From positions 1,550,001 to 1,614,000 of the forward strand of contig NZ_CP019791.1 in the NCBI RefSeq assembly GCF_002007645.1: DNA of 64,000 nt. Direction: 5' to 3'. Under the pieces are notes generated by a model that had not been told where the DNA came from, did not search any database, and saw only the letters and a list, made by a program, of their open reading frames with translations. Positions within the stretch are counted from its first letter, which is position 1, and every line of letters begins with the position of its first letter. This DNA is from Anaerohalosphaera lusitana. Lineage in GTDB: Bacteria > Planctomycetota > Phycisphaerae > Sedimentisphaerales > Anaerohalosphaeraceae. Shown piece after piece: positions 25,921 to 49,178 of this stretch. The position numbers and the translations under genes are program-made.

Positions 25921-25949
25921 TTGACGTGTCGGCATGTCAATGGTATAAA
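25921..25949 (+). promoter_or_regulatory. Sigma-70-type promoter of selenoprotein operon
   Basis: TTGACG, 17-nt spacer, TATAAA. Transcription should start near 25956. An ORF that appears to start at 25921 therefore cannot use that start. Confidence 0.7.
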
Positions 25950-25971
25950 CAAGAACGTAAACTGCTACTTA

Positions 25972-33726: not shown

Positions 33727-33753
33727 GGACACCATGACTCCTTACTAGCTCGT

Positions 33754-34235: not shown

Positions 34236-34661
34236 ATGTCGAAAGTGGATAAAATATGTAAGCCTGAATTCAGTGAACAGGCTCTGCCGGTCTTCACCGC
34301 CCGTATCTCAGCCGGGTTTCCTTCTCCAGCCGCCGACTACGAAGAGGGCAAGCTGGACCTCAATAAACACTTGATCAAGAACCCCCCAGCCACATTCTTC
34401 GTCAGGGTCACAGGCGACTCGATGGAAGGGGCCGGTATCTACGATGGGGACCTGCTGATCGTCGACCGCTCCGTCGAACCCAAGTCCGGCAAAGTGGTGA
34501 TCGCCGTCCTGAACGGTGAACTGACCGTGAAACGGCTAAGGGTATATCGAGGCAAATATTCACTGATAGCCGAAAACACTAACTATCCCGATATAAAAAT
34601 TTCCAGGGACATGGAATTTGAGGTGTGGGGAGTTGTTACAAATGTGATCCATCAGCTATGA
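34236..34661 (+). CDS. umuD: UmuD-like S24 peptidase
   Basis: 141 residues from ATG 34236 behind GGGG. The self-cleavage site is in R-I-S-A-G-F-P-S-P. The catalytic Ser is in [11 protein letters not shown] and the catalytic Lys in L-T-V-K-R-L. UmuD is trimmed after RecA activation and then joins UmuC in translesion synthesis. Its stop overlaps the umuC start by 4 nt (ATGA). Confidence 0.94.
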
Positions 34662-35917
34662 GCGATATCTTTGCATTAGTTGACTGCAATAATTTCTATG
34701 CTTCCTGCGAGCGCGTCTTCCAGCCGTCTCTCAAGCACCGACCGGTTGTCGTCTTATCGAACAATGACGGCTGCATCGTGGCTCGCAGCAACGAGGCCAA
34801 GGCCTTGGGCATCGCGATGGGCACTCCTTATTTCAAGGCCGAAGACATCATCAAGAAATATAATGTTGCTGTCTTCTCTTCCAACTACGCCCTTTATGCG
34901 GACATGTCCAACCGGGTAATGCAGACACTGAGCCGGTTCACATCCGAAATGGAAATCTATTCCATAGATGAAGCGTTTCTTGCACTCGACGGCATTCAGG
35001 GAAGCCTGGACTCCTACGGAAGACAGATAAGAAGCACGGTCCTGCAATGGACAGGGCTTCCCGTCTCGGTGGGAATTGCAAGGACCAAGACACTTGCCAA
35101 GATCGCTAATCACCTCGCCAAAAAGTCCGACAAAGCAGCCGGCGTACTGGACCTGACCCAGCAAAGATATATAGACCACGCTCTCGCCAAGACCGATGTT
35201 GAAGATGTCTGGGGCGTGGGCAGAAGGATTGCTGCAAAGCTCAGGCGAGCGGGAATCACAACCGCCAGGAAATTAGCTGAATGTGATATCGACTGGGTCT
35301 TGAGAACCTTTTCGATCATGACCGTCAGAACTGTCCTGGAATTGCGAGGCCAAAAGCATTTTGGTCTTGAAGAGGTCCCGGAACCAAAAAAGAACATTAC
35401 CGTATCAAGGTCCTTCGGCAAAGAAATAGAAACCGTCGAGCAACTGCAGCAGGCCCTTACCCAGTATGCGTCCAGGGCAGGCGAGAAACTCCGCTGCCAG
35501 AATCAGTACGCCCAGATCTTGACCGCCTTCGCCATGAGTAATCGCTTCGACAAAAAGAATGCCTATTACGGCTCAGCCAGTTATATATTTGACTCAGCGA
35601 CAGACAGCAGCCTGGACCTGGTGGGGGCGGCTAACAAGCTGGTTGATGAAATCTACAGGGATGGGGTAAAATTCAAAAAGGCAGGAGTGATGCTGAACAA
35701 ACTGGCTACCTCGAAGAATTTTCAGCGAAACCTTTTCGCAGATAGGGAGGCCATCAGCAGAGACAGACGGCTCATGCAGGTCCTTGACAGGATCAACGAA
35801 CGAGGCAAGCAGGTGGCGTTTGCTTCCGAAGGAACGGTAAAGCCCTGGCAAACAAAGTTCGACCATAGATCCCCATGCTACACGACCCGCTGGGATGAAT
35901 TCGTCACAGTCGTATAA
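34658..35917 (+). CDS. umuC: UmuC-like Y-family DNA polymerase (Pol V)
   Basis: 419 residues from ATG 34658, coupled to umuD. The polymerase active site is visible as [17 protein letters not shown] and [10 protein letters not shown], and the steric region as [16 protein letters not shown] helix-hairpin-helix region ([18 protein letters not shown]) and the UmuC-specific C-terminal domain ([20 protein letters not shown]) follow. It bypasses DNA lesions with low fidelity. Promoter and operator lie upstream of umuD. Confidence 0.95.
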
Positions 35918-36018: not shown

Positions 36019-36113
36019 TGGCGGAGGCGAATGGGAATCGAACCCACCCAGGACTTTCTCAGCCCAACACTGGTTTTGAAGACCAGGGGCACCACCAGGC
36101 ACCAATCACCTCC
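36019..36113 (-). tRNA. selC: tRNA-Sec (anticodon UCA)
   Basis: 95 nt including an encoded CCA. An 8-bp acceptor stem (GGAGGTGA with TCGCCTCC, one G-T pair), discriminator G, anticodon loop CTTCAAA with TCA at 36079-36077, a long variable arm and T-loop TTCGATT. The long acceptor and variable arm with UCA are diagnostic for selenocysteine tRNA. A T-run follows the CCA (36013-36018) and a good promoter precedes it. Confidence 0.96.
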
Positions 36114-36271: not shown

Positions 36272-36305
36272 TCAACGCATGTTCCTATTTCGGAGACCAC
36301 AAACC

Positions 36306-37841
36306 ATGTCGAAACCCACAAAGTTGATGATGATCGCCATACTGGCCGCGACTTTAAGTGCACCGGCCTGGGCTGACTCCCGCGCGATTGACCTGAAGCC
36401 CGAAAAAATGACTTCCGCTCAGGGATTTCGCCCGGCATTTGTACGCCCCGAGCCCGCGCCCACGGAAGATCTCACGATCAATGCCGAATTTCAGGCGTCG
36501 GATCAGTTTTACTTTAATTTCACCTACGGCCCGGACGAAGATAAAATCTACTCGGCCGTACTTGACAAGCAGGGCGGTGCACGCGCAGGCGTGGGTCTGC
36601 TCTATATCGATCTCAACAACGATGAAATCCTCGATCCCGAAAAGGAGTGCATCACAGTCCTTGTCGGTGCAAGCTACGGCTCTCCTCCCGTTCATGTTCC
36701 CCTTTCAGGTTTCAAAGACGGCTCTACCCGTCATGTAGCGCTCGCCTTTAACAGTTCCAAAGTTCCTGATGGCGAATATGTCATCACGGCTCAGCTAACC
36801 TCCCTAACCCGTTTCGAGGGCACCACCGAATTCGCCGGCAAAAAAACCAAAATAGCCCTCTGTGACAACAACGGAAACGGCACATACAACGATATAAATA
36901 CACGTGACGTTGCGACCAGCAATGATGTTGTCCTTGTGGACACGGACTCCGACGGCTTCTTCAACATGTCCTTCGACAGCCCCGAAATGTTCGAACTCAA
37001 CCGCTATGTCAAGGTCCACTCCGATTGGTACAGCTTTGAGCCCTCGCCCGATGGTAAAACTCTTGACATCCAAACCGAAGATCCCGAAACAGGCATCGTT
37101 ATCGCCCCCGACAACATCGACTACCTCGAACTCCACTCACCCAACCAGGACCTCAAACTGACCTTCACTCCTAACAACCGGCATGTCGAGGCCCTCGCCG
37201 GTGAATACAATCTCGCTGAGGTACGCTTCGCCGCCAAAGACGATAACGGCCGCCAGTGGTTTGCCCGCGCATACGACACTTCAACACAGTCCCTGAATTT
37301 CGAGGTCAAACCCGACGAAAAGATAGAGCTGCCCGACCTGCTTCCCCTCAAAGTATCCGTAGAGCCGCAATTCAAATCCAATGGCAAAGAGATCGTCTTC
37401 GAGCCCCATACGACAACCGCCAACGGCCTGCAAATTTCGGTCTTCGGCGGCGACGTGCCTTCCGTGATCCTTAAGGACCCTGACGGAAAAATCCTCGCCA
37501 AACCAAAATTCGAATATGGGTGAGGCGGTCCCATCCCGTGCTCGTGGCGAGTACCAAAAAACATAAACGGCAAGGTCACCATCGAACCCAGCTTTGACAT
37601 GGGACCGTTCGAAGCAAAGGCCCAGTCCGTAAGCTTAACCATAACCGACGGCGTAGCAAAATTGTCCGACAGTGCTGATCAGGGCAGTAATAACGACGAG
37701 AATCTCGAACTGGCCGATGTCGATGAAACCGAAAAACCAAACTACGTTGTCATAATAGTCATCGGCACCATCCTGATCGTCTCAGCGGTCGTAATTCTCA
37801 CCAAAAACAGAAAGGGTAAGGGCAACCCGCCGACCGAATAA
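36306..37841 (+). CDS. Exported, C-terminally anchored selenoprotein with in-frame UGA (Sec406)
   Basis: 511 residues when UGA 37521-37523 is read as Sec. ATG 36306 has GGAG about 12 nt upstream. A signal peptide (to about residue 24, P-A-W-A) is followed by beta-rich repeats with acidic loops (DLNNDEILDPEKE, DTDSDGFFN) that align with the gene at 27391. The Sec motif is F-E-Y-G-U-G-G-P-I-P-C, then S-W-R-V-P-K-N-I, so the nearby Cys is at +6 instead of +4. After about 75 residues there is an acidic linker and one membrane helix (about 480-500) with a basic tail (K-N-R-K-G-K-G). The Sec domain therefore lies outside the membrane. Divergent selC and the following selD operon frame it. The function is unknown. 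Confidence 0.87.
37524..37554 (+). promoter_or_regulatory. Bacterial SECIS element (copy 3)
   Basis: GUGCUC/GAGUAC (one G-U pair) with loop GUGGC at 37544-37548, the stem starting 15 nt after the UGA as in the other copies. Confidence 0.86.
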
Positions 37842-37921: not shown

Positions 37922-39529
37922 TTATTCTGCCTTTCGCACCTGCTTATACATCATCATCGCAGGTGAGCCCCCGAACGAGACACCCATCCACGCCGCCTCG
38001 TCTATCTCCGCATCCGCAAATCCCATCTTTTTCGCTTTCGCAATATGCGTCCGCAGACATGGCTCACACCGCGTCGCCACCGACAACGCCAAGTTCATCG
38101 CCTGTTTTGTAAATGCATCCAGCCCGCCCGGTCGCGAGCTGCTCGCCAGAAATCGCATATAATCCGCCTCCGTCCCGCCGCCTTCCATCCCCCCAGCCTC
38201 AACACAACAGCACGCCTCCTCAAGGCCCTTAGCAGCTTTATTGATCTCCGCCTTCTCGGCCGGACCACCCTCAGCCGCCGCACGCTCCCCGTCCTTCTTA
38301 CCTGCACTCCCGCCAGCAACCGGCATACTCCGCGATCCATTCGTCTCAAGCCGCACCTGCCCTTTGCCTTCACCCACGACCCGTCCGATCACCGTCGCCC
38401 GCTCAACTCCCCGCTCCCGCAGCGCCGTGACAAACTCCTCTGCCTTGTCCGGCGGGATTGCCACCAAAAGCCCACCCGACGTCTGCGCATCAAAACACAT
38501 GTCGTGCATCTCCTCCGTCACACCCTCACCCGCTCGCACATGCCGCCCGCACGATTCCTTGTTACGCTCGATCGCCCCTGGCAGCATCCCCTCCGCCACA
38601 TAATCCAGCACCCCGTCAAAGAACGGCACCTTGTCCCAAACGACTTCCACATCGACTCCGCTCCGCAACGCCAGCTCCGACAGGTGCCCCATCAGGCTGA
38701 ACCCCGTCACATCCGTACACGCACTCGCTCCGAACTCCGTCATCAGCTCCGCCGCTGTCTTGTTCAACTGCGCCATCGACCGACCGATCGCCTCCACATG
38801 CTCCGCCTTCGCTCGCCCGATCTGCCCGGCAAACGCAACGATGCCCGTACCCAACGGCTTCGTCAGAATCAACACATCCCCCGCCTTCGCCGTTGAATTG
38901 CTCGCGATCCTCTCCGTCTCGATGATGCCCGTCACTGCGAACCCGGCCTTCACTTCCGGATCGTTAATGCTGTGCCCTCCGATCACCGCAACCCCAGCCT
39001 CGGCCATCTTGTCCATCCCACCGCGCAGCATCTCCGACATCGCCTTGTCCGCGATCTTCCGCACCGGAAATCCCAGCACCGACAACGCAGTCAAAGGCTT
39101 GCCGCCCATCGCATAAACATCGCTCACCGAATTTGCCGCCGCGATCTGCCCGAACAGATACGGATCGTCCACCGAAGGCGTAAACACATCCACCGTCTGC
39201 ACCAGCGCACGCCCGTCCCCCAGGTCATACACCCCAGCGTCATCCCCAGCCGGAAATCCGATCAGCACATTCGGATCATCGACCGCAGGCAGCCCCTTCA
39301 GCACCTCCTTCAAAAACGCCTGATCAATCTTCGACGCACAGCCCGGCTTCTCGATCAGCTCCGTCAGCCGTACAGGCCCCGTCGGTCCGTCCAGCCGCTC
39401 GCCCGCACACAGACAAACGTTCTTCTCCTTGAACAGATCGCATGGGCAGGGCTTCTTAGGATCGCAAACACAATGCCCCAGTCGAATCGACCGCTGCATA
39501 ACCCGTTTTCTTCTTTCCATATTTATCAT
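37922..39529 (-). CDS. selD: Selenophosphate synthetase fused to Cys-rich N-terminus and AhpD-like (CMD) domain
   Basis: 535 residues from ATG 39529, behind AAGGAA that overlaps the end of the upstream gene. Residues 1-45 are an unusual cysteine-rich extension (H-C-V-C-D, K-P-C-P-C-D, N-V-C-L-C-A-G-E). The SelD/AIR-synthetase core follows, with the active-site Cys and Lys in K-P-G-C-A-S-K-I, then GFPAGDDAGVYDLGDGRALV, AVIGGHSIND and CTDVTGFSLMGHLSELA. After a Gly/Ala/Glu-rich linker, the last 85 residues are a carboxymuconolactone-decarboxylase/AhpD-like domain with C-E-P-C-L-R-T-H. SelD makes selenophosphate from selenide and ATP for selenocysteine synthesis. The AhpD-like CxxC could reduce or deliver selenium to the synthetase, which is inference. 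It is last in a six-gene minus-strand operon. Confidence 0.93.
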   Translation of the reverse strand: MINMERRKRVMQRSIRLGHCVCDPKKPCPCDLFKEKNVCLCAGERLDGPTGPVRLTELIEKPGCASKIDQAFLKEVLKGLPAVDDPNVLIGFPAGDDAGVYDLGDGRALVQTVDVFTPSVDDPYLFGQIAAANSVSDVYAMGGKPLTALSVLGFPVRKIADKAMSEMLRGGMDKMAEAGVAVIGGHSINDPEVKAGFAVTGIIETERIASNSTAKAGDVLILTKPLGTGIVAFAGQIGRAKAEHVEAIGRSMAQLNKTAAELMTEFGASACTDVTGFSLMGHLSELALRSGVDVEVVWDKVPFFDGVLDYVAEGMLPGAIERNKESCGRHVRAGEGVTEEMHDMCFDAQTSGGLLVAIPPDKAEEFVTALRERGVERATVIGRVVGEGKGQVRLETNGSRSMPVAGGSAGKKDGERAAAEGGPAEKAEINKAAKGLEEACCCVEAGGMEGGGTEADYMRFLASSSRPGGLDAFTKQAMNLALSVATRCEPCLRTHIAKAKKMGFADAEIDEAAWMGVSFGGSPAMMMYKQVRKAE

Positions 39530-39530
39530 C

Positions 39531-40334
39531 TTAGTTCCTTCCACCGATCTTGTTGATATTTCTCACACGCCTCGCCGCCAGCAGCGCCGCTCCCATCGCC
39601 CCCGTCTTCTGCGGCGAAGAACACACTCGCACTTCCGCACCGACCGCATCCTCGAGCGTCTCCCTCATTCCCGGTATCATCGCGACCCCGCCCGTAAACG
39701 TCACACCTCCACCGTTCACCGGCCCGCTCATCGCCGCGATCCGCTCTGCGATCGAAAACTGCACCCCCGCGATAATGTCACTCGTCTCAACCCCCTCCGC
39801 CATCAATCCCACGATCTCCGTCTCCGCGAAAACCACGCACATACTGCTTATTGCCGCCGGACTGCGGCTCTTGCTCGCCAGCTCCCCCAGCCTCTCTATA
39901 GGCACCTCCGTCCGATTTGCAACCAGCTCCAGAAACCGCCCCGTACCTGCCGCACATCGGTCATTCATGCTGAAATCATAAACCGTCCCGTCAGCCTCCA
40001 GGTGTATTACCTTGCTGTCCTGCCCGCCGATATCGATGATAACGCTCGTCTCCGGCAAATGATACGTCACGCCTGCCGCATGACACGTTATCTCCGTGAT
40101 CGTCTTGTCCGCAAAATCAAGCATCCCCCGCCCATACCCCGTAGCAACCGTATATGCAATGTCGTCCATCCCGATCCCGCTCTCCTCCGCGATCCGCTCC
40201 AGCAGCAGCCTCGCAAGACGCTTCTGTTCGATCCCCTGATCGACCACCCCCTCACCCAGCACCACCATCCGCTCAGCATCCAGCAGCACCGCCTTTATCG
40301 TCCTCGATCCTGCATCAATTCCCGCACATATCAT
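39531..40334 (-). CDS. BadF/BadG/HgdC-type ATPase, activator of 2-hydroxyacyl-CoA dehydratase-like enzyme
   Basis: 267 residues. An actin-fold ATPase: GIDAGSRTIKAVLLD at the start and IDIGGQDSKVIHL as the second phosphate loop. The bridging [4Fe-4S] ligands are Cys in N-D-R-C-A-A-G-T-G-R-F and S-S-M-C-V-V-F-A-E-T-E. These activators use ATP hydrolysis to push an electron at very low potential into a partner iron-sulfur protein. The partners are encoded directly upstream. Its stop precedes the selD start by one base, so selD translation is coupled. Confidence 0.92.
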   Translation of the reverse strand: MICAGIDAGSRTIKAVLLDAERMVVLGEGVVDQGIEQKRLARLLLERIAEESGIGMDDIAYTVATGYGRGMLDFADKTITEITCHAAGVTYHLPETSVIIDIGGQDSKVIHLEADGTVYDFSMNDRCAAGTGRFLELVANRTEVPIERLGELASKSRSPAAISSMCVVFAETEIVGLMAEGVETSDIIAGVQFSIAERIAAMSGPVNGGGVTFTGGVAMIPGMRETLEDAVGAEVRVCSSPQKTGAMGAALLAARRVRNINKIGGRN

Positions 40335-41710
40335 ATTTGTTTTACGCTCCCAACTGTTTCCACCAGCGCCTCGATCCGAGTCCGTAAACTTTCATGATCC
40401 GCGTCGATCACCGACGGCACCTCGATCTCCAGCACTTTCAAACTCGTTCGTCTTTTCAATTCATCTCGTATTATCGTTCCCTCCATCGCGCAATGACTCG
40501 CCCCCGGCACTCGCGACACAATCACAGCTCCCGCCCCGAACTCTTCCGCATCCCGCGCGATCCTCTCAGCTCTCTGACCGCTAGACCCAACCATCGGATC
40601 CGCCATCGCCGCCCGCGCCAGCGCCTCCATCGGCTCTACGTCCTCACTGATCGCATCGATCGCATGCGTAAACAGATAATCCGTCCCGCAAAGCCTCGCC
40701 CCACAATCCTCCAGCAGATTCATCACCCGCAGATCGGCAGGGGGATTCACCCAGAACACCTTCACCGCCGACGCATCCAGCACTCCCGCTCCTCTCGCAG
40801 CTCGTTTCCTCACCAGCTCCAACAGTCCCTCCAGCACCCGCACACACATGTTCCTGTCCGAACAGTAATGTATCGCCAGCATCTCCGCCACCAGCATCTC
40901 AACCGCGCCCAGCGGACAAACTTCCGCCCCGAAAACCACCCTCCTCAATTCCCGCAGCAACCCACGCACTCTGTTCGCTTCCCGGATACTCTTCGCCAGC
41001 TCCTCCTCGTCCAGCTTCCGTCCAGCGGCCCCCTCCAGCATGCCAAGAACACCCTCCAACTGTCCCCTGACAAAATCCACCTGCTCCCGCGCAGCCCTCA
41101 CCCCGCCGGGCAAACTCATCGCATCTTCCCTTTTTTCGACCTCCCGCCTGTAAGGGACCTCCCACCAATGTATCGCAAATCCCAAACCCTCAAGCCGCTG
41201 CGCTATCACCGAAAAGTCATCGCACACCGCCCCCGCACTGCACGTCAGTACATCAGGCCGCGGAAAATGCTTTCCGTTCACAAACGCCCCCAGCATCGCC
41301 CGCACCGGGCAGAACGACTCATCCATACCCAGCGAATCCGCGATTTTCAAAAGCCCCGCACTCATCTGCATTACGCACGGCGTCCACCACGCACCGTCCG
41401 GATAGAACGCGACCATCTCGTCGAACGCATACGCCAGCACCGGTACTGTCCCCAGATCCTTCATCGCCCCTACGATTATCTTCCCCTCATCCCTGTGCCG
41501 CGCGAGCCGCTCTTCCTCGCTCAACAGCATGTTCCACAGCCGCAGCGCCTCAACCGAATTGTCAAACTCCAGCTTACCCAGCCTTCTGTCCCCATCCTCA
41601 AAATAATACCCAAGCCTCCGCACCTCCCCCGCATCGATCACGCCGCTCGCGCAAAGCCGTTCATACCTCTGCTTCCATTCCCCAAGCGAAATTTTCCTCG
41701 GCCCATCCAT
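40331..41710 (-). CDS. 2-hydroxyacyl-CoA dehydratase D-like (HgdB-like) protein
   Basis: 459 residues from ATG 41710, which overlaps the preceding stop (TAATG). Family traits are a Rossmann-like start (KIIVGAMKDLGTVPVLAYAFDEM), C-P-V-R-A-M-L-G-A-F, the Cys region TCSAGAVCDD and the last lobe GAGAVIVSRVPGASHCAMEG. It differs from the classical substrate-bearing subunits in that several expected cluster Cys positions vary, so it may be a diverged partner. It would accept low-potential electrons from the ATPase at 39531. The substrate is unknown. Its position in the selD operon suggests a selenium-related reduction. Confidence 0.78.
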   Translation of the reverse strand: MDGPRKISLGEWKQRYERLCASGVIDAGEVRRLGYYFEDGDRRLGKLEFDNSVEALRLWNMLLSEEERLARHRDEGKIIVGAMKDLGTVPVLAYAFDEMVAFYPDGAWWTPCVMQMSAGLLKIADSLGMDESFCPVRAMLGAFVNGKHFPRPDVLTCSAGAVCDDFSVIAQRLEGLGFAIHWWEVPYRREVEKREDAMSLPGGVRAAREQVDFVRGQLEGVLGMLEGAAGRKLDEEELAKSIREANRVRGLLRELRRVVFGAEVCPLGAVEMLVAEMLAIHYCSDRNMCVRVLEGLLELVRKRAARGAGVLDASAVKVFWVNPPADLRVMNLLEDCGARLCGTDYLFTHAIDAISEDVEPMEALARAAMADPMVGSSGQRAERIARDAEEFGAGAVIVSRVPGASHCAMEGTIIRDELKRRTSLKVLEIEVPSVIDADHESLRTRIEALVETVGSVKQI

Positions 41711-42555
41711 TAACTCAACATCTCCCCAAACGCATTCAACCTCGTCACAGTATTCGCCGACGCATAACTCCCAGCCTCGTTTATCTCCAGATCGATAACC
41801 GCCACTCCTGCTGCCTCCTTTATCCGCCCGAGCTCACCGTGCCACAGATCGCACCACGTATACCGATGCAGGATAAGCCCGTCCACAGCTCCCGAGCCGC
41901 TCCACTCCCTAAGCCACTCGTACCATCCCGCGTTCGATCTCTGCCGAATGTCCAGCACCTCTACAAAATACTTCCTCACCAACCCGTCCATATCACTTTC
42001 GCAACCTCCGAACTCGCCCAACCGCACGGGCCCCATCATATCCACCAGCCGAGCCCCCGCGATCTCACCTAACATCAATCCCTCCGCCGCAATAGGCGCC
42101 CCGATCACCCCCAGCACCAGCTCTCCGCTCCCATCCTCGAACCTCGTCCGCTGTTCATCCCTGCCATCCTCCAAAACTTCATCGTCATTGGTGCTATCTT
42201 TTAGTTCCTTCAGAAACCGCTCCAGCCTCTCAACCTCCGCACCGAACATCCCCTGCGAAGCCGTTCCCCTCGTTACCGGCACGTTCAGCACGAACATCTC
42301 CCCGCCGAACTCATCCCTCATCGCCTCAAAACAACGTCGCACCTGGTCGCACGTACCCGCCCCCACAAACGCGTCCAGATCATCCCTCCCCAACAGACTC
42401 GCAACCGTTCCAGCCGCATACGGACACATTCCCTCTCTCAGCCTCAAGCACTCCGCACCGCCCGCCATGCTGGGCCTTACGAATTTCGCCTCATGCCCCG
42501 CCGCCTCGATTAGTTCGACCGGCACATACCCCGATGTATAACCAACCACCGCCAA
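41710..42555 (-). CDS. Short HgdB-like protein
   Basis: About 281 residues. I chose TTG 42555 with GGAGGG 8 nt upstream and a 1-nt gap to the upstream stop; longer forms would run deep into that gene. It starts A-V-V-G-Y-T-S-G-Y-V-P-V-E-L-I-E-A-A-G, a typical start of 2-hydroxyacyl-CoA dehydratase D proteins, and has C-P-Y-A-A-G and G-A-G-T-C-D-Q-V-R-R-C. It ends with a cysteine near H-R-Y-T-W-C-D-L-W. It is much shorter than full-length family members (about 380-430). It probably forms a complex with the products on both sides. Confidence 0.72.
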   Translation of the reverse strand: MAVVGYTSGYVPVELIEAAGHEAKFVRPSMAGGAECLRLREGMCPYAAGTVASLLGRDDLDAFVGAGTCDQVRRCFEAMRDEFGGEMFVLNVPVTRGTASQGMFGAEVERLERFLKELKDSTNDDEVLEDGRDEQRTRFEDGSGELVLGVIGAPIAAEGLMLGEIAGARLVDMMGPVRLGEFGGCESDMDGLVRKYFVEVLDIRQRSNAGWYEWLREWSGSGAVDGLILHRYTWCDLWHGELGRIKEAAGVAVIDLEINEAGSYASANTVTRLNAFGEMLS

Positions 42556-42556
42556 G

Positions 42557-43780
42557 CTAATTACCCTCCACCATCTCGAACATCGCCTCCAGTCGAACCG
42601 CGATCCTTGCAGCATCAGAAGGCGAATAATCCGTCTCGATCTTCAAATAAGGCAGACCAAGCTCACCCTCCGCGAGCTCCTTCACCAGCCGCGACTCCAC
42701 ATCGTAAGTCAGACACGCCTGCCACACCAGGTCTACCACGCAATCCGCCCGGTATTGCTTTGCAAGCCGCTCTATCGACTCCAGCCTGCCCGCATTAGGC
42801 GTCATAACCGAACATGGCAGATGCAGGTACTTAGCCGCGATCGCCTCTATCGCGTCCTCCGCCTCCTCGTCCACGTCCTCCAGTATCGGCTTGACCCCTG
42901 TGCAGTTCTCCATGCACACCACGACCCCGCCAGCCTCCTCTATAAGCTTCACCACCTTCTCCGCCCCATGCACCGTCGGCACCCCCGTCAGCAGCACCCG
43001 CACACGATTCTCGCCAACGCTCCCAGCCGCGCCGCTGCCGTAATACTCCGCCGCCTCCTCATACTTTACAAGGTCGGCCTCTATACCCGAAATAGTACTT
43101 TTCATCGCCAGTACCTCGCTCCCGCTCAAAGGCGGATCCTCCGCTTCCATCAACTCTGCGATCCTCCGCCGCAGCCTTCGCTCCCTGTTCATCACCCGCA
43201 CTGCCTCCCACAGCTTCTCATCCGTGATCTCCACCCCCAGCTTTTCCCCAAGCCGATCCCGCAGTTTCACCACCTCAGCCGTCCACCGCGCCAAAGCTCC
43301 CTCTTCGCCCGGCTTCTGCACCAGCTCCAGCACGATCATATCCTTCTTCCTCGCCATCAGCTCATACATCTTCTTCTTGCCGTCACACGTTGTCTCCGCC
43401 ACCACCACATCCGCCATCTTCAGAAACAAATTCGACCCGTCCATTACATATCCGTACGTCGACTTGATCAGCGGACACAGATTCGCCGGCAGCTCCCTAT
43501 GCGCCTCCACCGCTTTCTCCGCACTCCCCCCGCAAAGACAGACCGGAAGCGCACCCGCCGCCATGATCACCTCCCTCGGCGTATACTCGCACATGATCCC
43601 GACGATCCCGCGCCCGCTCTCCTTCGCCGCAGTCGCATACTCATAACAGTTCGAGATCATATTCTCAAAATGCCCTAAAGGCCCGCTCGCACCGCCGCAA
43701 CCATCATCAGCACCGCAACCACCGCTCCGCTCATCCTGACCGTTTCCGCCTCCAGCACCGCATCCGCAATTCGTACTCAT
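42557..43780 (-). CDS. Double-cubane-type cluster protein (YjiM/HgdB family) with Cys/Gly-rich N-terminal extension
   Basis: 407 residues from ATG 43780, 10 nt after the previous stop. A Cys/Gly-rich tail of about 33 residues (NCGCGAGGG and GGCGADDGCGG) precedes the family core. The core has G-I-M-C-E-Y-T-P-R-E, N-L-C-P-L-I-K-S-T-Y-G, T-T-C-D-G-K-K-K-M-Y-E and E-N-C-T-G-V-K-P, positions that ligate the double-cubane cluster in characterised relatives. Such proteins reduce small molecules after activation by a BadF-type ATPase. The ATPase is encoded in the same operon. The N-terminal extension resembles a metal or selenium handling segment; this is inference. Confidence 0.85.
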   Translation of the reverse strand: MSTNCGCGAGGGNGQDERSGGCGADDGCGGASGPLGHFENMISNCYEYATAAKESGRGIVGIMCEYTPREVIMAAGALPVCLCGGSAEKAVEAHRELPANLCPLIKSTYGYVMDGSNLFLKMADVVVAETTCDGKKKMYELMARKKDMIVLELVQKPGEEGALARWTAEVVKLRDRLGEKLGVEITDEKLWEAVRVMNRERRLRRRIAELMEAEDPPLSGSEVLAMKSTISGIEADLVKYEEAAEYYGSGAAGSVGENRVRVLLTGVPTVHGAEKVVKLIEEAGGVVVCMENCTGVKPILEDVDEEAEDAIEAIAAKYLHLPCSVMTPNAGRLESIERLAKQYRADCVVDLVWQACLTYDVESRLVKELAEGELGLPYLKIETDYSPSDAARIAVRLEAMFEMVEGN

Positions 43781-43790
43781 ATTCGTACCT

Positions 43791-44597
43791 CTAACCCTTC
43801 TTCTTCGCAACGAACAACGCCTGACATATCTTTCCAGCCTTCGCCATATCCCGCAGAAAACACATCTCTTCCGCAACCGCCCCCAGCGCATCCATATCGA
43901 ATCCCAGTATCTTCAGCGCATCATACATATACTGCCTCCGCACCGAGTCTATATACAGATCACAGCACCCCGCAAATCGCCCCGTATCCTCCGCGATCTC
44001 GACCTCGCACCCCGTCGCCTCCAGCAACCCCGCATACCCGTCGACATCCTGCACATTCGCAAACTTCATGAACCGCAAAAATCTCTCCGCCTCATTCTCA
44101 TTCATCGCGACCGCTCCCTCCACCCAGTCCGTAAACGCGATTTCCCCCCCGTCCCGCACCAGCCGAACCGCCTCCACGATCAGTGTATCCTTATCCTTCA
44201 CATAGCACCATGCATCCTCACCCCACACAAAATCGTACATTCCATCTGCCAGCCCCGTCGCACACGCATCCGCATGCACGAACTCCAGCCTCTCCGCAAG
44301 TCCTTCCTGATGTGCCCGCTCCCTCGCCTCGGCTACCATCATTTCCGTCACATCTATCCCGACCATCGACTCCACCCCGCACATCCGCACCAGAAATTTC
44401 ATCCCCGCACCCGTACAGCAGCAAAGATCCACACCGCGCGACCCCGCCTGGATCCCCGCCTTCTCCGCCAGCTCCATCGAAGATTCCAGCCCGCCGACAT
44501 GGATCTGCTCACCCATCAGCAATTCCCACAGCCGCATCTCCGCACCGCTGTAAACCTCCTGTACATCCTCGACCGAAATCTCCTCATTGCACTTCAT
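43791..44597 (-). CDS. SAM-dependent methyltransferase, class I
   Basis: 268 residues from ATG 44597 with GGAG 7 nt upstream; an in-frame ATG at 44678 lies inside a terminator and is not used. SAM-binding motif I is V-D-L-C-C-C-T-G-A-G-M-K-F-L, followed by V-G-I-D-V-T and FVHADACATGLADGMYDFVWGEDAWCYV. Many cysteines (C-C-C-T-G, G-C-C-D-L-Y) recall methyltransferases acting on metalloids. It leads the operon that ends with selD. Methylation of selenium (making volatile or exportable species) or of a cofactor is possible. The substrate is not readable from sequence. Confidence 0.82.
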   Translation of the reverse strand: MKCNEEISVEDVQEVYSGAEMRLWELLMGEQIHVGGLESSMELAEKAGIQAGSRGVDLCCCTGAGMKFLVRMCGVESMVGIDVTEMMVAEARERAHQEGLAERLEFVHADACATGLADGMYDFVWGEDAWCYVKDKDTLIVEAVRLVRDGGEIAFTDWVEGAVAMNENEAERFLRFMKFANVQDVDGYAGLLEATGCEVEIAEDTGRFAGCCDLYIDSVRRQYMYDALKILGFDMDALGAVAEEMCFLRDMAKAGKICQALFVAKKKG

Positions 44598-44649: not shown

Positions 44650-44694
44650 AAAAAAAGCAGGCGAAGAGCATTTATCAAAATAGCTCTCGCCTGC
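44650..44694 (-). terminator. Intrinsic terminator before the methyltransferase-selD operon
   Basis: On the minus strand, GCAGGCG-AGAGC and GCTCT-CGCCTGC (one bulge, 13-nt loop) are followed by TTTTTTT. It lies between the selenopeptide stop (44736) and the methyltransferase start (44597). I see no clear promoter between it and that gene. Confidence 0.85.
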
Positions 44695-44735
44695 CGATAA
44701 CCGTGGCGTCAAAACTCGATTTTCACTTCCCTCAT

Positions 44736-44858
44736 TCACAACGGCATGGTAGTCGCCTTATGCCGAACAGGGATCGAGGGCGCCCGCCACGAGCACCGGC
44801 AGACCGCACCTCACCCGTACTCCAGTTCGAAATCAATTATAAACAAATATTGATCCAT
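44736..44858 (-). CDS. Short selenopeptide/leader with in-frame UGA (Sec16)
   Basis: 40 codons from ATG 44858. The UGA (44813-44811) is in the same context as in the three large selenoproteins: L-E-Y-G-U-G-A-V-C-R-C, then S-W-R-A-P. The SECIS hairpin follows at the same distance. The peptide ends at a second UGA (44738-44736) with no hairpin. No strong RBS is visible before the ATG. The frame stays open upstream to about 44936, so a longer form with a GTG start is possible. There is no signal peptide. It is separated from the methyltransferase-selD operon by a terminator, so a role as a selenium-sensing leader is inferred. A small redox peptide or a relic of a larger gene is the alternative. 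Confidence 0.7.
44780..44810 (-). promoter_or_regulatory. Bacterial SECIS element (copy 4)
   Basis: GUGCUC pairs with GGGCGC (two G-U pairs) around GUGGC (44790-44786), 14 nt after the UGA. The loop-spanning sequence CGUGGCG (44791-44785) is exactly complementary to CGCCACG at 44708-44702 on the same transcript. Confidence 0.8.
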
Positions 44859-45034: not shown

Positions 45035-45082
45035 AGCACTCGTTCCGACTCATAAGCCGACTTTTACGTGCGAGAACTGCCC

Positions 45083-46492
45083 ATGTCAAATACAGACAAA
45101 CAAACGCTCCTGCGAAATATCCCCTCCGTCAGCGCCGTCCTCGAACAGCTAAAGCACCAGATCGACACCCAGCCGACCCTGCTCCACTCCGACATCACCC
45201 GCGCCTGCCTCGACGACCTCCGCAGTCGGATCCTCGCAGGCAACGGCTTCGAACCGCCTGCCGATCTGCCGCAATATGTGCTCGATCAGGTAACCGACCG
45301 CATCACCCAGCTTAACGGCATATATCACGCCCGCGTCGTCAACGCCGCAGGCATCGTCCTCCACACGGGCCTCGGCAGGGCGGTCGTCCCCAAACCCGCA
45401 CTCGACCACCTCACCTCCGACCTCGCCGGCTACTCGCTCCTTCAGCTCTCAACCGACACCGGCAAACGCTCCCGTCGTGACGCACGTATCGAACAGCTCC
45501 TGCAAACCCTCACTGGCGCTCCCGCCGCAACCGTCGTCAACAACAACGCCGCCGCAACCTCAATCGTCCTCAACACCATCGCCAAAGATAAAGAAGTCAT
45601 TGTCTCCCGAGGCCAGCTCGTCGAGATCGGCGGCTCGTTCCGCCTTCCGGATGTGATGGCCTTCAGCGGCGCAAAGCTCGTCGAGGTCGGCACCACCAAC
45701 AAAACCCACCCCCGCGACTACCTCAGCGCCATCACCGAAAACACCGCCGCCATCCTCCGCGTCCACCCCAGCAATTACAAGGTCCAGGGCTTCAGCTCCG
45801 AGGTCCCCCTCGACGAGCTCGTCGACATCGCCCACTGCAACGATCTGCTCATGTTCGACGACGTAGGCGCAGGCTCACTCTTAGACTTCACCCGCTACGG
45901 CTTTGACCACGAACCTACGCTCGTCGAATCCGTCAACGCCGGAGCAGACGTCATTACCTCGTCAGGCGACAAGCTCATCGGCGCCTCCCAGGCAGGCATC
46001 ATCCTCGGCAAACCCGACATCATCACCGCCATCCGCAAAAACCAGTTCGCCCGCATCCTCCGCGTCGACAAAATGACCCTCACTGTCCTCGAACAGACCC
46101 TCAAGCTCTTCCTCGACCAGGAAAATGCTCTCAAAACCGTCCCCACCCTCCGCATGATGCTCCGCAAACCCGATTCCATCCGTCGCCAGGCAAACCGCAT
46201 AAAACGCAAGCTCGCCGCTGCCTGCCCCAACGCACAGCTTGCCATCACAAAGGGCCACTCCCAGCCCGGCTCAGGCTCGCTGCCCGCCCAGTCCATGCCC
46301 ACCAGCCTCGTAACCGTTACCGCACCCAACTACAGCGCCGACCAGCTCGCACGCAAACTCCGCAAATACAAAACACCCGTCTTCGTCCGCATCCAGAACG
46401 AACAGGTCCTCATCGACCCCCGAACTCTCCTCGACGGTGACGAAAAAACGTTAATACAAGCCCTAACCTGGGCCCTGAGTACGAAAGAATAA
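45083..46492 (+). CDS. selA: L-seryl-tRNA(Sec) selenium transferase
   Basis: 469 residues from ATG 45083; GTG 45068 is an alternative. It has the SelA N-terminal domain (LLRNIPSVSAVLEQ) and the core INAAG-type motif VVNAAGIVLHTGLGRAVV. The PLP lysine is in TSSGDKLIGASQAGII, with GAGSLLDF before it. It converts serine on tRNA-Sec to selenocysteine using selenophosphate. The stop is 2 nt before the selB start, so the two are one operon. Codon use is strongly C-ending here, unlike the accessory region after 53 kb. Confidence 0.97.
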   Translation: MSNTDKQTLLRNIPSVSAVLEQLKHQIDTQPTLLHSDITRACLDDLRSRILAGNGFEPPADLPQYVLDQVTDRITQLNGIYHARVVNAAGIVLHTGLGRAVVPKPALDHLTSDLAGYSLLQLSTDTGKRSRRDARIEQLLQTLTGAPAATVVNNNAAATSIVLNTIAKDKEVIVSRGQLVEIGGSFRLPDVMAFSGAKLVEVGTTNKTHPRDYLSAITENTAAILRVHPSNYKVQGFSSEVPLDELVDIAHCNDLLMFDDVGAGSLLDFTRYGFDHEPTLVESVNAGADVITSSGDKLIGASQAGIILGKPDIITAIRKNQFARILRVDKMTLTVLEQTLKLFLDQENALKTVPTLRMMLRKPDSIRRQANRIKRKLAAACPNAQLAITKGHSQPGSGSLPAQSMPTSLVTVTAPNYSADQLARKLRKYKTPVFVRIQNEQVLIDPRTLLDGDEKTLIQALTWALSTKE

Positions 46493-46494
46493 AA

Positions 46495-48408
46495 ATGTCA
46501 TCCAGCCAGATAAACATAACTCTCGGCACCGCCGGCCACATCGACCACGGCAAGACCGCACTTATCAAACTCCTCACAGGCTGCGAAACCGACCGCCTCA
46601 AAGCCGAAAAGGATCGCGGAATGTCCATAGAACTCGGCTTCGCTCCCTGCACCATCTCCGACCTCGAAGTCGGCATCGTCGACGTACCGGGCCACGAAAA
46701 CTTCATCAAAACAATGGTCGCAGGCGCCACCGGCATCGACGCGGTCATTTTCGTCATCGCAGCCGATGACGGCGTCATGCCCCAGACCCGCGAACACCTC
46801 GACATCCTCACCATCCTCGGCGTCTCCCACGGCATCATCGCCCTCACCAAGGTCGACACCGTCGACGACGAACTCCGCGACCTCGTCGCTGACGACGTCC
46901 GCAATTTCATCACCGGCACCTTCCTCGAAAACGCTCCCATCCTCCCTGTCTCCTCCATTACCGGCCAGGGCTTTGATGCTTTTTACGGATCCCTCCGCGA
47001 AATGGTCTCCCGCGTCACCCCCAAACCCTCCGACGGCATCTTCCGCGTACCCGTCGAAAACGTCTTCTCCGTCAAGGGCTACGGCTCTGTCATTACCGGC
47101 ATTCCCGTCGCGGGCTCCGCCTCTATCGGCGACGAACTCATCATCCTCCCGCAAGACGAAACAGGCCGCATCAAAGCCGCCCAGGTCTACTCCAAACCCG
47201 CCCAAAAGGCACAGACGGGCCAGTGCGCCGCGATTAACGTTCCGCAGTGGGACTACAAAGCCATATCACGAGGCGACGTCGCCACTGTTCCCGGCTATTT
47301 CGAACCCGCCCACTTCTATCTCGCAAAAATGTCCCTCATCCCCCATGTAGGCCACAAACTCAAGACCGGCTCACAGCTCAAGCTCCACACCGGCACCAGT
47401 GAACACACCGCAAAAATATACCTCATGGAAGACAACACCCTCCAGCCCGGTACTGAAACCCTCGTCCAGTTCCGCCTCGACACACCTCTCGTCGCAGGCC
47501 CCCGCGATCCCTTCATCGTCCGCTCGCTCACTCCGCCCCGGACCATCGGAGGCGGCACCATCCTAAAACCCCTCACCCGCAGACTCAAACGCAGCAAACC
47601 CGCCGTCCTCGAAAATGCCCGCTCACTCGCCCGCGCGATCGAAAACGACAAAACTTTCGTCTTCTATACCGTAAATGATTCGCCGAACCACACCGCGACC
47701 ACCGAGGACATCGCCCGCACAGTCAAGCTCCGGCCCCAAACCGTCACCGCCATCACCGACCATCTCGTCTCCACAGGCGACCTCATCCGTACCGCCGACA
47801 ACACATACATGGCCGCCGAAACCGAATCCATCTTGCGAAGCAACCTCCTCGATACGCTGAAAACCTATCACGCCGAAAACCCCCAAAGTCCCGGCATGAC
47901 GTTCGACGACCTCCGCAACGCCGTCGACCTCGACCCCTCACTATTCAAATTCATGATCAGCAGGCTGACAGACGCAGGCAGGATCGAACATCGCAAAGGC
48001 AGGGCGGCCCTGTCCACGCATAAGGTGCAATTTGACACCGCCCAGGCCGATCTTATGAACACCATCGAAACCATCTTTCTAGATCGCCTCTTCAACCCGC
48101 CCGGCACAGACGAACTCCTCCGCACAACAAAAGCCAACACCCGCGACCTCACCCAGGCCCTCAACACCCTCGCCCAGCACAAAAAGCTCGTCCGCATAGA
48201 CTCGAAGATCACCTTTCACACCGCTGCCGTTGAAAAGGCAAAAGAACTCCTCATCGCGGACCTCCAGGAAAACGGCCGATTCGAAAGCGTCCGCTTCAAG
48301 TACCTCCTCGACACCTCGCGCAAATACGCTCTGCCCCTGCTCGACTTCTTCGACGACATAGGCCTGACCCGCCGCGACGGCAACACCCGCTACCTCAAAA
48401 ATGGCTGA
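46495..48408 (+). CDS. selB: Selenocysteine-specific elongation factor
   Basis: 637 residues. The G domain has GTAGHIDHGKT, DRGMSIELGF, DVPGHENF and LTKVD. EF-Tu-like domains 2 and 3 follow, then C-terminal winged-helix domains (about residues 380-637) that bind the SECIS hairpin. It brings Sec-tRNA to UGA codons next to a SECIS. Its natural targets would be the four UGA/hairpin sites in this window. It is co-transcribed with selA. Confidence 0.97.
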   Translation: MSSSQINITLGTAGHIDHGKTALIKLLTGCETDRLKAEKDRGMSIELGFAPCTISDLEVGIVDVPGHENFIKTMVAGATGIDAVIFVIAADDGVMPQTREHLDILTILGVSHGIIALTKVDTVDDELRDLVADDVRNFITGTFLENAPILPVSSITGQGFDAFYGSLREMVSRVTPKPSDGIFRVPVENVFSVKGYGSVITGIPVAGSASIGDELIILPQDETGRIKAAQVYSKPAQKAQTGQCAAINVPQWDYKAISRGDVATVPGYFEPAHFYLAKMSLIPHVGHKLKTGSQLKLHTGTSEHTAKIYLMEDNTLQPGTETLVQFRLDTPLVAGPRDPFIVRSLTPPRTIGGGTILKPLTRRLKRSKPAVLENARSLARAIENDKTFVFYTVNDSPNHTATTEDIARTVKLRPQTVTAITDHLVSTGDLIRTADNTYMAAETESILRSNLLDTLKTYHAENPQSPGMTFDDLRNAVDLDPSLFKFMISRLTDAGRIEHRKGRAALSTHKVQFDTAQADLMNTIETIFLDRLFNPPGTDELLRTTKANTRDLTQALNTLAQHKKLVRIDSKITFHTAAVEKAKELLIADLQENGRFESVRFKYLLDTSRKYALPLLDFFDDIGLTRRDGNTRYLKNG

Positions 48409-48557: not shown

Positions 48558-49178
48558 ATGAAAAGAACCGCACTCACCCTGATCGTTGCCCTGTTACTTT
48601 GTACATCCACATCCTTCGCTGCACTGAATGCCTACCTGCGAGCCACCGGCGAAACACAGGGAAATATTGCAGGCTCGGTAACAGAGCCCGGGCTCGAAGG
48701 CTCAATCGCAGTCATAGGCTCCATCCATGAAGTCGTGAGCCCGCGCGATGCAGCAAGCGGCCTGCCGACAGGCAAACGCCAGCACAAACCCTTCAAAATC
48801 ACCAAAACGGTCGATAAAGCCAGCCCGCTGCTTGCCAATTCTCTCACCAGCGGCGAGCATTTCACCCAGTTCGAACTGCAATACTGGCAGCCCGCCCCGG
48901 ACGGAACCCAGATACTGGCCTACACTATAAGATTGCACAATGCTCAGGTTTGCGGCATAAAGCAGCAAATCAGCGATACTTTCACCGAGCAGGTATCTCT
49001 GACTTATGACAGCATCGAATGGATATGGGAACCCGAAGCCATCGCAGCTCAGGACGATTGGGACTATCAGTCGAGCGATATAAGGCTTACCGACCTCAGC
49101 GGTGACGGCATCGTCGACATAATCGACCTGGCGATCCTCGCAAGCGATTGGCTCGAAAGAACAGAACCCGCTCAATAA
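48558..49178 (+). CDS. Exported Hcp-like protein with dockerin-like C-terminus
   Basis: 206 residues; ATG 48558 behind AGGAGGT. A Sec signal peptide (to about residue 21) precedes a domain of about 135 residues with features of the Hcp (type VI secretion tube) family: G-S-I-A-V-I-G-S-I-H-E-V, H-K-P-F-K-I-T-K-T-V-D-K-A-S-P-L-L and the ending E-Q-V-S-L-T-Y-D-S-I-E-W-I-W. The last 30 residues are a dockerin-like repeat (DLSGDGIVDIIDLAILASDW). Hcp is normally cytosolic and lacks both parts, so this version acts outside the cell. It has its own promoter. Confidence 0.8.
   Translation: MKRTALTLIVALLLCTSTSFAALNAYLRATGETQGNIAGSVTEPGLEGSIAVIGSIHEVVSPRDAASGLPTGKRQHKPFKITKTVDKASPLLANSLTSGEHFTQFELQYWQPAPDGTQILAYTIRLHNAQVCGIKQQISDTFTEQVSLTYDSIEWIWEPEAIAAQDDWDYQSSDIRLTDLSGDGIVDIIDLAILASDWLERTEPAQ

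Follow-up and report, generated by a model that had tools for sequence, protein, structure and literature searches.

A six-gene operon of Anaerohalosphaera lusitana, packed on the minus strand at positions 37922-44597 of the window analysed here (a 64,000-nt stretch of contig NZ_CP019791.1), is probably a selenium-acquisition module that would reductively free selenide for SelD under selenium limitation; we place the probability of this reading at roughly 0.55. The operon encodes a methyltransferase (MT), three HgdB-type proteins (H1, H2 and H3), a BadF-type ATPase and a SelD fusion (Table 1). Both the coordinates and the spacing of this tight arrangement, described in the initial annotation as having overlaps of 1-4 nt and gaps of at most 10 nt, were verified, with intergenic distances from MT to SelD of 10, 1, -1, -4 and 1 nt. 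To that description can be added the AhpD and Cys-rich parts of the SelD fusion, selC, selA and selB, and a UGA-SECIS leader with a terminator. The positions of selC, selA and selB place the entire Sec machinery at the operon locus. No HgdB-type genes other than H1, H2 and H3 were found in the 4.25 Mb genome. The start of H2 was assigned to TTG 42555, which is preceded by GGAGGG, in preference to a GTG start at 42564, where the actual codon is GTA. The SelD start was taken at 39529, while the mechanical ORF begins at GTG 39544.

Table 1 Features of the operon locus (positions within the 64,000-nt window).
Feature	Position	Strand	Evidence or remark
selC, tRNA-Sec	36023..36113	-	RF01852, 75.6 bits
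Selenoprotein of FEYG-U-GG...SWRVP family	36279..37841	+	UGA at 37521; adjoins operon
SelD fusion	37922..39529	-	TIGR00476, Cys-rich N-terminus, C-terminal AhpD domain
BadF/HgdC-type ATPase activator	39531..40334	-	TIGR00241
H3, HgdB-like subunit	40331..41710	-	PF06050, HadB-like fold
H2, short HgdB-like subunit	41710..42555	-	PF06050, three invariant cysteines
H1, predicted double-cubane-cluster protein	42557..43780	-	NF040772, six cluster cysteines
MT, SAM methyltransferase, ArsM/DVU_1556-like superfamily	43791..44597	-	Profile search and conserved Cys
Intrinsic terminator, 7-T tract	44650..44694	-	Ends about 53 nt 5' of MT start
Anti-SECIS segment, candidate antiterminator	44689..44707	-	Complementary to SECIS strand; overlaps terminator 5' arm
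Leader mini-ORF MDQYLFIIDFELEYG-U-GAVCRCSWRAPSIPVRHKATTMPL	44736..44858	-	In-frame UGA 44813-44811; layout repeated in 12 other loci
SECIS-type hairpin GGTGCTCG[TGG]CGGGCGCC	44779..44797	-	13 nt past UGA
selA	45068..46492	+	TIGR00474, 525 bits
selB	46495..48408	+	TIGR00475, 344 bits

The module was found at 80 examined loci from about ten phyla, with conserved gene order relative to selD, selA and selB, and this repetition of gene set and order rules out a chance arrangement. Some loci consist of MT-H2-H3-activator without H1. Genes in GC-rich loci were called with a composition-scored caller and tblastn, longest-ORF calling having yielded false shadow genes. Among genomes with an H3 orthologue, selD was present in 12/12 Planctomycetota (base rate 164/246; hypergeometric P = 0.0067) and in 4/4 Verrucomicrobiota (base rate 11/194; P = 5.8e-6, or 1.0e-4 minus the centre genome); these statistics cover the two phyla named, and related genomes are non-independent samples. 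Frequent occurrence of the operon in genomes without selenium use, which the initial annotation had named as evidence against a selenium link, is thus not what we observed. Every genome that passed the double-cubane cut-off also carries selD (13/13 in Planctomycetota), and in a control set of 14 genomes E. coli and M. jannaschii alone carry the double-cubane family together with selD, both over the cut-off. Two further genomes, L149 and L150, have H1 immediately next to selD but no H2 or H3 there, which also favours a selenium link. The survey was extended to 40 further operon genomes, all incomplete, 37 of which had been picked because no selD was seen near H3. Even so, selD exceeded its cut-off in 35 and selB in 36, revealing the association with selD and Sec that had been proposed for survey; selD over the cut-off was missing from five of these incomplete genomes. 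By comparison, selU was found in only one of 41 operon genomes, and none was found in the A. lusitana genome. This led us to reject selenouridine as the purpose of the module and, taken with the selB count, associates it with selenocysteine. A selenium-independent, general anaerobic CoA-ester reductase is ruled out by the co-occurrence with selD. The selenium link of the module is therefore well supported by genome comparison.

H1 scores 410 bits against NF040772, above the curated cut-off of 350. Using the BzdN [8Fe-9S] cysteine ligands as a reference list (PMC11971306), H1 residues C64, C102, C132, C293, C323 and C356 were found to align with BzdN C36, C73, C100, C263, C293 and C327. All six are conserved at 98-100% across 57 H1 sequences, and H1 is accordingly a predicted double-cubane protein with a complete [8Fe-9S] ligand set. 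The wording of the initial annotation would have allowed H2 and H3 to be additional double-cubane proteins. We rejected this assignment: both are without the distal cluster cysteines, and they reach only 36 and 62 bits, respectively, against the NF040772 cut-off. They do score 83 and 136 bits against PF06050 (cut-off 28.4). Alignment of relatives shows H2 C47, C72 and C238 to be invariant, as are H3 C134 and C163, with H3 C407 nearly so (at least 90%). These three cysteines per subunit appear to be [4Fe-4S] ligand positions like those of 2-hydroxyacyl-CoA dehydratase and benzoyl-CoA reductase. The H3 model (pLDDT 92) matches HadB with a TM score of 0.87 by target, and the H2 model (pLDDT 86) resembles DCCP/BzdN (DCCP match E 4.5e-13). 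As neither subunit reaches the HadB/HadC, Bzd or Bcr equivalog cut-offs (best 34 bits versus >420), the models suggest that H2-H3 works like a HAD/class I BCR heterodimer but should not be filed as a member. Assignment of the activator is based on 238 bits against TIGR00241 (cut-off 125) and a match to the HgdC structure 1HUX (E 2e-57). The SelD fusion scores 368 bits against TIGR00476 (cut-off 125), and the catalytic C64 and K67 are present in 35/35 fused SelDs. Its N-terminus contains six Cys arranged as three CxC pairs, while the C-terminal domain scores 34.7 bits against the AhpD core model TIGR00778 (cut-off 27.8), with the CxxCxxxH active site (C488, C491 and H495) kept in all 35 fusions.

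The leader preceding MT follows a common plan in 13 loci: a UGA, 13 nt, an 8-bp hairpin with a UGG loop and, ending 18-65 nt short of MT, a terminator whose stem covaries. All 13 combine a leader ORF bearing a regulatory codon with a subsequent intrinsic terminator, the arrangement expected of a ribosome-mediated transcription attenuator. The 13-nt spacing, 8 bp and UGG loop hold in nearly all leaders, identifying the hairpin as a candidate bacterial SECIS, and 98% of its cells are paired in the leader alignment. Such SECIS-type elements number 64 in 1.41 Mb of loci versus 2-3 in Markov controls. The terminator has a long loop, and was missed by a scanner with a loop limit; 7 of its 10 stem pairs show compensatory changes across the 13 leaders. 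Pairing between anti-SECIS and SECIS extends to 84% of cells, versus 28-48% when slid, and the duplex exceeds shuffles in 11/13 loci. No antiterminator covariation beyond shuffles was seen in the 13 leaders, where the SECIS strand is nearly invariant. Swapping cognate and non-cognate SECIS and anti-SECIS likewise gave no discrimination, because the SECIS strands are nearly identical. An Rfam search of the leader gave no match, and a consensus promoter scan performed at chance level. On this sequence evidence, we consider the leader a candidate selenocysteine-sensing attenuator.

It is entirely possible, if short of even odds, that the leader is no attenuator, in which case the terminator would close a selenoprotein gene lying upstream, and transcription of the operon would start at its own promoter or come from read-through. 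Indeed, the UGA ORF is a full, ordinary selenoprotein gene in 9/13 loci, which the terminator could simply end, and no terminator was found in L060, L083 and L088. However, the T tract lies only about 18-65 nt from MT, the anti-SECIS is conserved within a non-coding gap, and the mini-ORFs of A. lusitana, L042, L111 and L114 encode unrelated peptides while keeping the UGA-SECIS. Two more mini-ORFs, in L029 and L030, again combine unrelated peptides with a UGA-SECIS, in these cases without a terminator. The apparent selenocysteine-reading switch suggests that the module fetches selenium during cellular shortage. The combined proposal, that a UGA-SECIS attenuator using the SECIS strand as its switch turns on reductases that free selenide for a redox-fused SelD, is put forward tentatively.

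For the acquisition module, we infer the following route. The BadF-type ATPase would push very-low-potential electrons into H1 and into the HAD/BCR-like H2-H3 heterodimer, and these would reduce a selenium compound that is hard for thiols to open. Probably this compound is taken up from outside as an organic or methylated selenium species, which MT would handle or activate. Selenide may then travel via the Cys-rich and AhpD (CxxC) domains to the SelD to which they are fused, which would produce selenophosphate for SelA/SelB. With sufficient selenium, the UGA-SECIS would be decoded, allowing the terminator to form and switching the operon off; under limitation, the SECIS strand would pair with the anti-SECIS, disrupting the terminator so that the operon is transcribed. 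Points that count against the acquisition reading include the chemistry: ordinary selenite or elemental selenium does not need so low a potential, and MT, as a user of SAM, would be expected to methylate its substrate, not to demethylate it. The earlier proposal of an ATP-driven, low-potential reductase tied to selenium and feeding SelD has strong comparative support, and its chemistry, reduction of a selenium compound or methylated species, is plausible, leaving the overall interpretation partly supported.

In favour of acquisition, sister operons at L051 and L095 (partly L041 and L062) include an ABC importer with an SsuA/SaoX-like binding protein and outer-membrane barrels, and the importer permease and ATPase have SaoP and SaoA as their best matches. 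DUF3034 barrels occur immediately 5' of MT in seven loci. At most loci, no importer was found near the operon.

The presence of SelD as the closing gene of the same operon, and of MT at nearly every locus, could also indicate that the module consumes selenophosphate, with SelD, MT and the reductases building a selenium (possibly methylated) metabolite or cofactor; selenoneine (PMC9814287) shows that gene clusters for selenium metabolites exist. We consider this unlikely. A search of the genome turned up no other SelD, and the operon enzyme has to supply SelA; nearly every genome with the operon also has selB. Among the operon proteins there was no selenium-transferring synthase, and a selenocysteine-codon leader indicates supply, not use. 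Processing of organometal(loids) (methylated arsenic, mercury or tellurium) helped by selenoproteins, which would make the selenium link indirect, seems similarly improbable. It would account for an ArsM-like MT with invariant Cys 59, 61 and 131 (Cys 60 almost invariant) and for an importer whose closest matches, SaoA and SaoP, belong to the selenocysteine-assisted organometallic system, and an ArsM-AhpD selenoprotein exists in NCBIfam. However, MT scores far below the ArsM cut-off, the sister loci fall far below those of SAO (bits/cut-off: SaoA 232/360, SaoP 151/295 and SaoX 39/300), and it is to SelD, not to a selenoenzyme, that the redox partners are joined by fusion or linkage. There is little likelihood that reductase and activator merely supply low-potential electrons to, or repair, SelD, selenide carriers or oxidised selenoproteins, with no imported substrate: L149 and L150, where H1 directly adjoins selD without H2 or H3, and the ten conserved non-catalytic cysteines of the SelD fusion would fit, but thioredoxin-type systems are normally enough, and H2-H3, MT and the importer would be left unexplained.

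The initial annotation knew of no described pathway of this kind. This holds for the module itself: no description of the SelD-reductase module or its leader, nor any UGA-SECIS transcription attenuator, was found in the literature searched, although an earlier mention elsewhere is possible. It does not extend to hints of a DCCP-selenium link, as a STRING table of Slackia Se genes includes HgdB and activase genes (PMC5322559), and a dicubane protein has been termed provisionally selenium-linked (PMC10418091). The form in which selenium reaches SelD in cells and the system that donates it have been posed as open questions (PMC13188914), for which the operon offers a concrete and widespread candidate donor system with fused delivery domains. 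It also suggests a physiological role for double-cubane proteins, whose occurrence extends to E. coli (YjiM). Should the leader operate as proposed, transcription attenuation would here read the 21st amino acid, the SECIS would double as an RNA switch and the ribosome would read out selenium shortage.

When compared with known systems, H1 shares NF040772 membership and the six [8Fe-9S] cysteines with Carboxydothermus DCCP/DCCP-R (PDB 6ENO, 7YYL) and E. coli YjiM/YjiL, and the operon activator belongs to the same ATPase family as DCCP-R/YjiL. The A. lusitana operon adds SelD, MT and a second heterodimer to the DCCP arrangement and, unlike it, E. coli yjiML lies away from sel genes. In the case of HadBC and BzdNO, the three Cys per subunit are alike, with H3 modelled like HadB and H2 like DCCP/BzdN, whereas H2 is without part of the fold's middle, the context is one of selenium, and no signs of a CoA substrate were seen. 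Type 1 mlp clusters, and the use of dimethylselenide by Methanococcus voltae (PMC10418091), likewise involve a proposed release of selenide from methylated selenium and are associated with Sec genes and DCCP. These clusters use corrinoid methyltransferases, in contrast to the A. lusitana operon, where a profile search of the encoded proteins found no corrinoid protein, Mlps or RACE protein. The SAO system provides the nearest relatives of the importer at some loci, yet under its cut-offs, and neither an organometal lyase nor other Sao proteins were seen. SelD fused to NADH dehydrogenase or NifS (PMC2398784) also carries a redox or selenium-delivery domain. The A. lusitana SelD differs from these fusions in having AhpD and three CxC pairs at its N-terminus. 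In the E. coli selAB leader, a SECIS-like element lets the selenocysteine machinery control downstream genes, and in trp-type ribosome-mediated attenuators the reading of leader codons controls downstream genes, as proposed for the MT leader. Compared with both, A. lusitana has a UGA-SECIS ORF coupled to a transcription terminator.

All six genes described in the initial annotation, for a methyltransferase (MT), three HgdB-type proteins (H1, H2 and H3), a BadF-type activator and a SelD fusion, are present as a tightly packed operon, with gaps of 10, 1, -1, -4 and 1 nt. No HgdB-type genes beyond H1, H2 and H3 were found in the genome. The family scan places selA and selB divergent from the operon, and with tRNA-Sec also close by, the whole selenocysteine machinery lies at one locus. 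An Hcp-family protein adjoins selB, and a lesion-bypass polymerase adjoins tRNA-Sec.

Features of the operon and its surroundings, in coordinates of the window (G000:C1:1550001-1614000; genome a single contig of 4.25 Mb).
Feature	Position	Strand	Remark
MT	first gene, operon 37922-44597	-	SAM methyltransferase by family scan
H1	second gene, operon 37922-44597	-	NF040772, 410 bits (cut-off 350)
H2, H3	operon 37922-44597	-	HgdB-like, PF06050
Activator (activase)	operon 37922-44597	-	TIGR00241
SelD with C-terminal AhpD domain	operon 37922-44597	-	TIGR00476
Mini-ORF with in-frame UGA	44858-44736		upstream of MT
tRNA-Sec	36023-36113
Exported selenoprotein	25921-27351	+	UGA at 26479
Exported selenoprotein	27391-30252	+	UGA at 28555
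Exported selenoprotein	36279-37841	+	UGA at 37521
Secreted carboxypeptidase-regulatory/thioredoxin-like protein	30328-32766	+
NapH-like membrane protein	32881-33735	-	Fer4_5
UmuC/IMS-family polymerase	34625-35917	+
T6SS Hcp-family protein	48558-49178	+	PF05638

Scanning an H3 alignment against 84,980 species genomes gave 164 relatives, the best 80 of which fall in Planctomycetota, Verrucomicrobiota (including Lentisphaerae and Kiritimatiellae), Omnitrophota, Sumerlaeota, Hydrogenedentes, Armatimonadota, Myxococcota, Riflebacteria and unclassified bacteria. Within 10 kb of H3 in these 80 loci, many on short contigs, we found H2 in 77, the activator in 74, MT in 64, H1 in 62, SelD in 42, SelA in 28 and SelB in 26. 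The most frequent order is that of the window, (selB selA divergent) MT-H1-H2-H3-Act-SelD; SelD-MT-H1-... and SelA-SelD-SelB-MT-... also occur, so the link with sel genes was formed or kept repeatedly. Among 38 well-flanked loci, H1 is present in all 23 that bear SelD. In L149 and L150, H1 adjoins selD without H2 or H3. Two ORFs beside the activator in the distant H3 loci L029 and L030 resemble, by their translations, a NifS/Sec-lyase-like aminotransferase and a 2Fe-2S ferredoxin-domain protein.

The survey of the reductase genes against selD and Sec proposed in the initial annotation bears out their association. All 12 Planctomycetota genomes with H3 (at least 33% identity) have selD, as do all 13 with a double-cubane-cluster protein (DCCP) over cut-off, against a base rate of 164/246 (p 0.0067 and 0.0044, phylogeny ignored and thus indicative only). 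In Verrucomicrobiota, where selD occurs in 11 of 194 genomes, it is present in 4/4 with H3 (p 5.8e-6, or 1.0e-4 minus the centre genome, with the same caveat on phylogeny). Of the 16 genomes listed for the family, order and class to which the window belongs, none carries H3, DCCP or selD. Forty further H3 genomes, selected mainly where no selD had been seen close to H3, contain selD over cut-off in 35 cases and selB in 36; the exceptions are incomplete assemblies, one (L090) broken inside the SelD-AhpD gene. The selU gene is absent from 40/41 operon genomes. Of 14 control genomes, only E. coli and M. jannaschii exceed the DCCP cut-off, and the same two alone exceed that for selD.

All 35 fused SelDs examined carry three N-terminal CxC pairs (C20, C22, C28, C30, C39, C41), the catalytic C64 and K67 downstream, a CC pair (C441, C442) and an AhpD CxxCxxxH motif (C488, C491, H495). 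The Cys-rich N-terminus and AhpD domain are usually retained where selD lies away from H3. Known SelD fusions have NADH-dehydrogenase and NifS partners (PMC2398784); no account of a CxC-SelD-AhpD fusion was found in the literature searched. Most stand-alone Planctomycetota SelDs are themselves selenoproteins (one TGA), whereas those fused to AhpD have cysteine instead.

Alignment of H1 to the solved DCCP gives E 2e-57. Its C64, C102, C132, C293, C323 and C356, kept in 98-100% of 57 homologues, match all six cysteine ligands (C36/73/100/263/293/327) of the [8Fe-9S] cluster in BzdN (PMC11971306). H2 (C47, C72, C238) and H3 (C134, C163, C407) hold only the three proximal ligands per subunit, a pattern like that of HadBC and BzdO, which combine a [4Fe-4S] cluster with an open site. 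The predicted H3 structure (pLDDT 92) matches HadB (TM 0.87), and that of H2 (pLDDT 86) matches DCCP and BzdN. From this cysteine anatomy and the model matches, a single ATPase appears to serve both the double-cubane protein H1 and an H2-H3 heterodimer resembling 2-hydroxyacyl-CoA dehydratase (HAD) and benzoyl-CoA reductase. MT carries invariant cysteines next to the SAM motif (DLCCCxGxGM), plus one further Cys. A DCCP homologue of genome G033 (L171 1711) has an in-frame TGA (SGT-U-PYKK...GETTCD), followed by a hairpin, where the reference DCCP has Cys, and is a candidate selenocysteine-containing double-cubane protein.

The three exported selenoproteins share the motif [FL]xYG-U-GG...SWR(V/E)P, which is partly encoded by the SECIS hairpin itself; the family has no match in Pfam or NCBIfam. 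In their cluster, 43/45 ORFs end at a TGA followed by GGxCxxSWRVP-like codons, and 31/32 matches, from 19 of 246 Planctomycetota genomes, have exactly one TGA. Relatives of the NapH-like and carboxypeptidase-regulatory/thioredoxin-like proteins also turn up near the operon at other loci (clusters 7 and 10), so both may serve the exported selenoproteins as redox partners.

In the window's leader, the UGA is followed by 13 nt and a hairpin of 8 bp with a UGG loop; the same hairpin stands at equal spacing after the UGA of the family of exported selenoproteins found around the operon. Across 1.41 Mb of loci, 64 such elements were counted; Markov controls gave 2-3. In 13 loci an intrinsic terminator lies between the UGA ORF and MT, its T tract 18-65 nt before MT; its stem covaries (both sides changed in 7/10 pairs), and pairing in the stem of the SECIS reaches 98%. 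The non-coding gap also contains a segment, typically GCCACGAGCACCGGC, that overlaps the 5' arm of the terminator and is reverse-complementary to the SECIS strand GCCGGTACTCGTGGC. This SECIS:anti-SECIS duplex beats shuffles in 11/13 loci, with 84% of cells pairing against 28-48% when slid; it shows no covariation across the 13 leaders because the SECIS strand is nearly invariant. In nine loci a complete selenoprotein gene forms the UGA ORF. Mini-ORFs with unrelated peptides take its place in the window, L042, L111 and L114, and in L114 the frame behind the UGA differs too, which argues that the RNA, not the peptide, is kept. L029 and L030, in which no terminator was found, keep UGA-SECIS mini-ORFs ahead of MT, and their stems show compensatory changes.

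A minority of loci carry possible import genes. In L051 an outer-membrane barrel, binding protein, permease, ATPase and DUF3034 barrel precede MT, H1, H2, H3, activator and SelD on one strand; in L095 MT to activator are followed by a binding protein, permease, ATPase, barrel and selenocysteine-type SelD. SaoP and SaoA are the best matches of the permease and ATPase, with scores under their cut-offs; the binding protein belongs to the SsuA family and matches SaoX more weakly. A DUF3034 barrel immediately precedes MT in seven loci. The simplest reading is dedicated uptake of a selenium or organo-element compound.

Built on the anatomy, conservation and co-occurrence observed here, the most likely mechanism is a selenium-supply model, in which we infer the direction of the switch. 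When selenium suffices, SelB and Sec-tRNA would decode the UGA, the SECIS would be folded or ribosome-covered, and the terminator would form, turning the operon off. When selenium is short, the UGA would not be read through, and the free SECIS strand would pair with the anti-SECIS, breaking the terminator and turning the operon on. Its products would then import or take up a refractory selenium compound, the putative substrate, which ATP-driven electrons would reduce, selenide being handed to SelD, perhaps channelled through the AhpD domain. More speculatively, MT could methylate a selenoether to a selenonium, which cleaves reductively more easily.

In the literature searched, we found no description of the MT-H1-H2-H3-activator-SelD module or of the candidate UGA-SECIS attenuator; earlier mention by Haft and co-workers is possible. 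HgdB and activase genes are among the STRING partners of Se genes reported by Lin et al. (PMC5322559), and Duan et al. linked a dicubane protein "provisionally" to selenium (PMC10418091). The demethylation precedent (PMC10418091) is corrinoid-based, whereas the family scan found no corrinoid protein among the operon proteins. The kinds of system involved are known: DCCP/HAD-type reductases, here in a selenium role, and attenuation, here through a candidate selenocysteine-codon switch.
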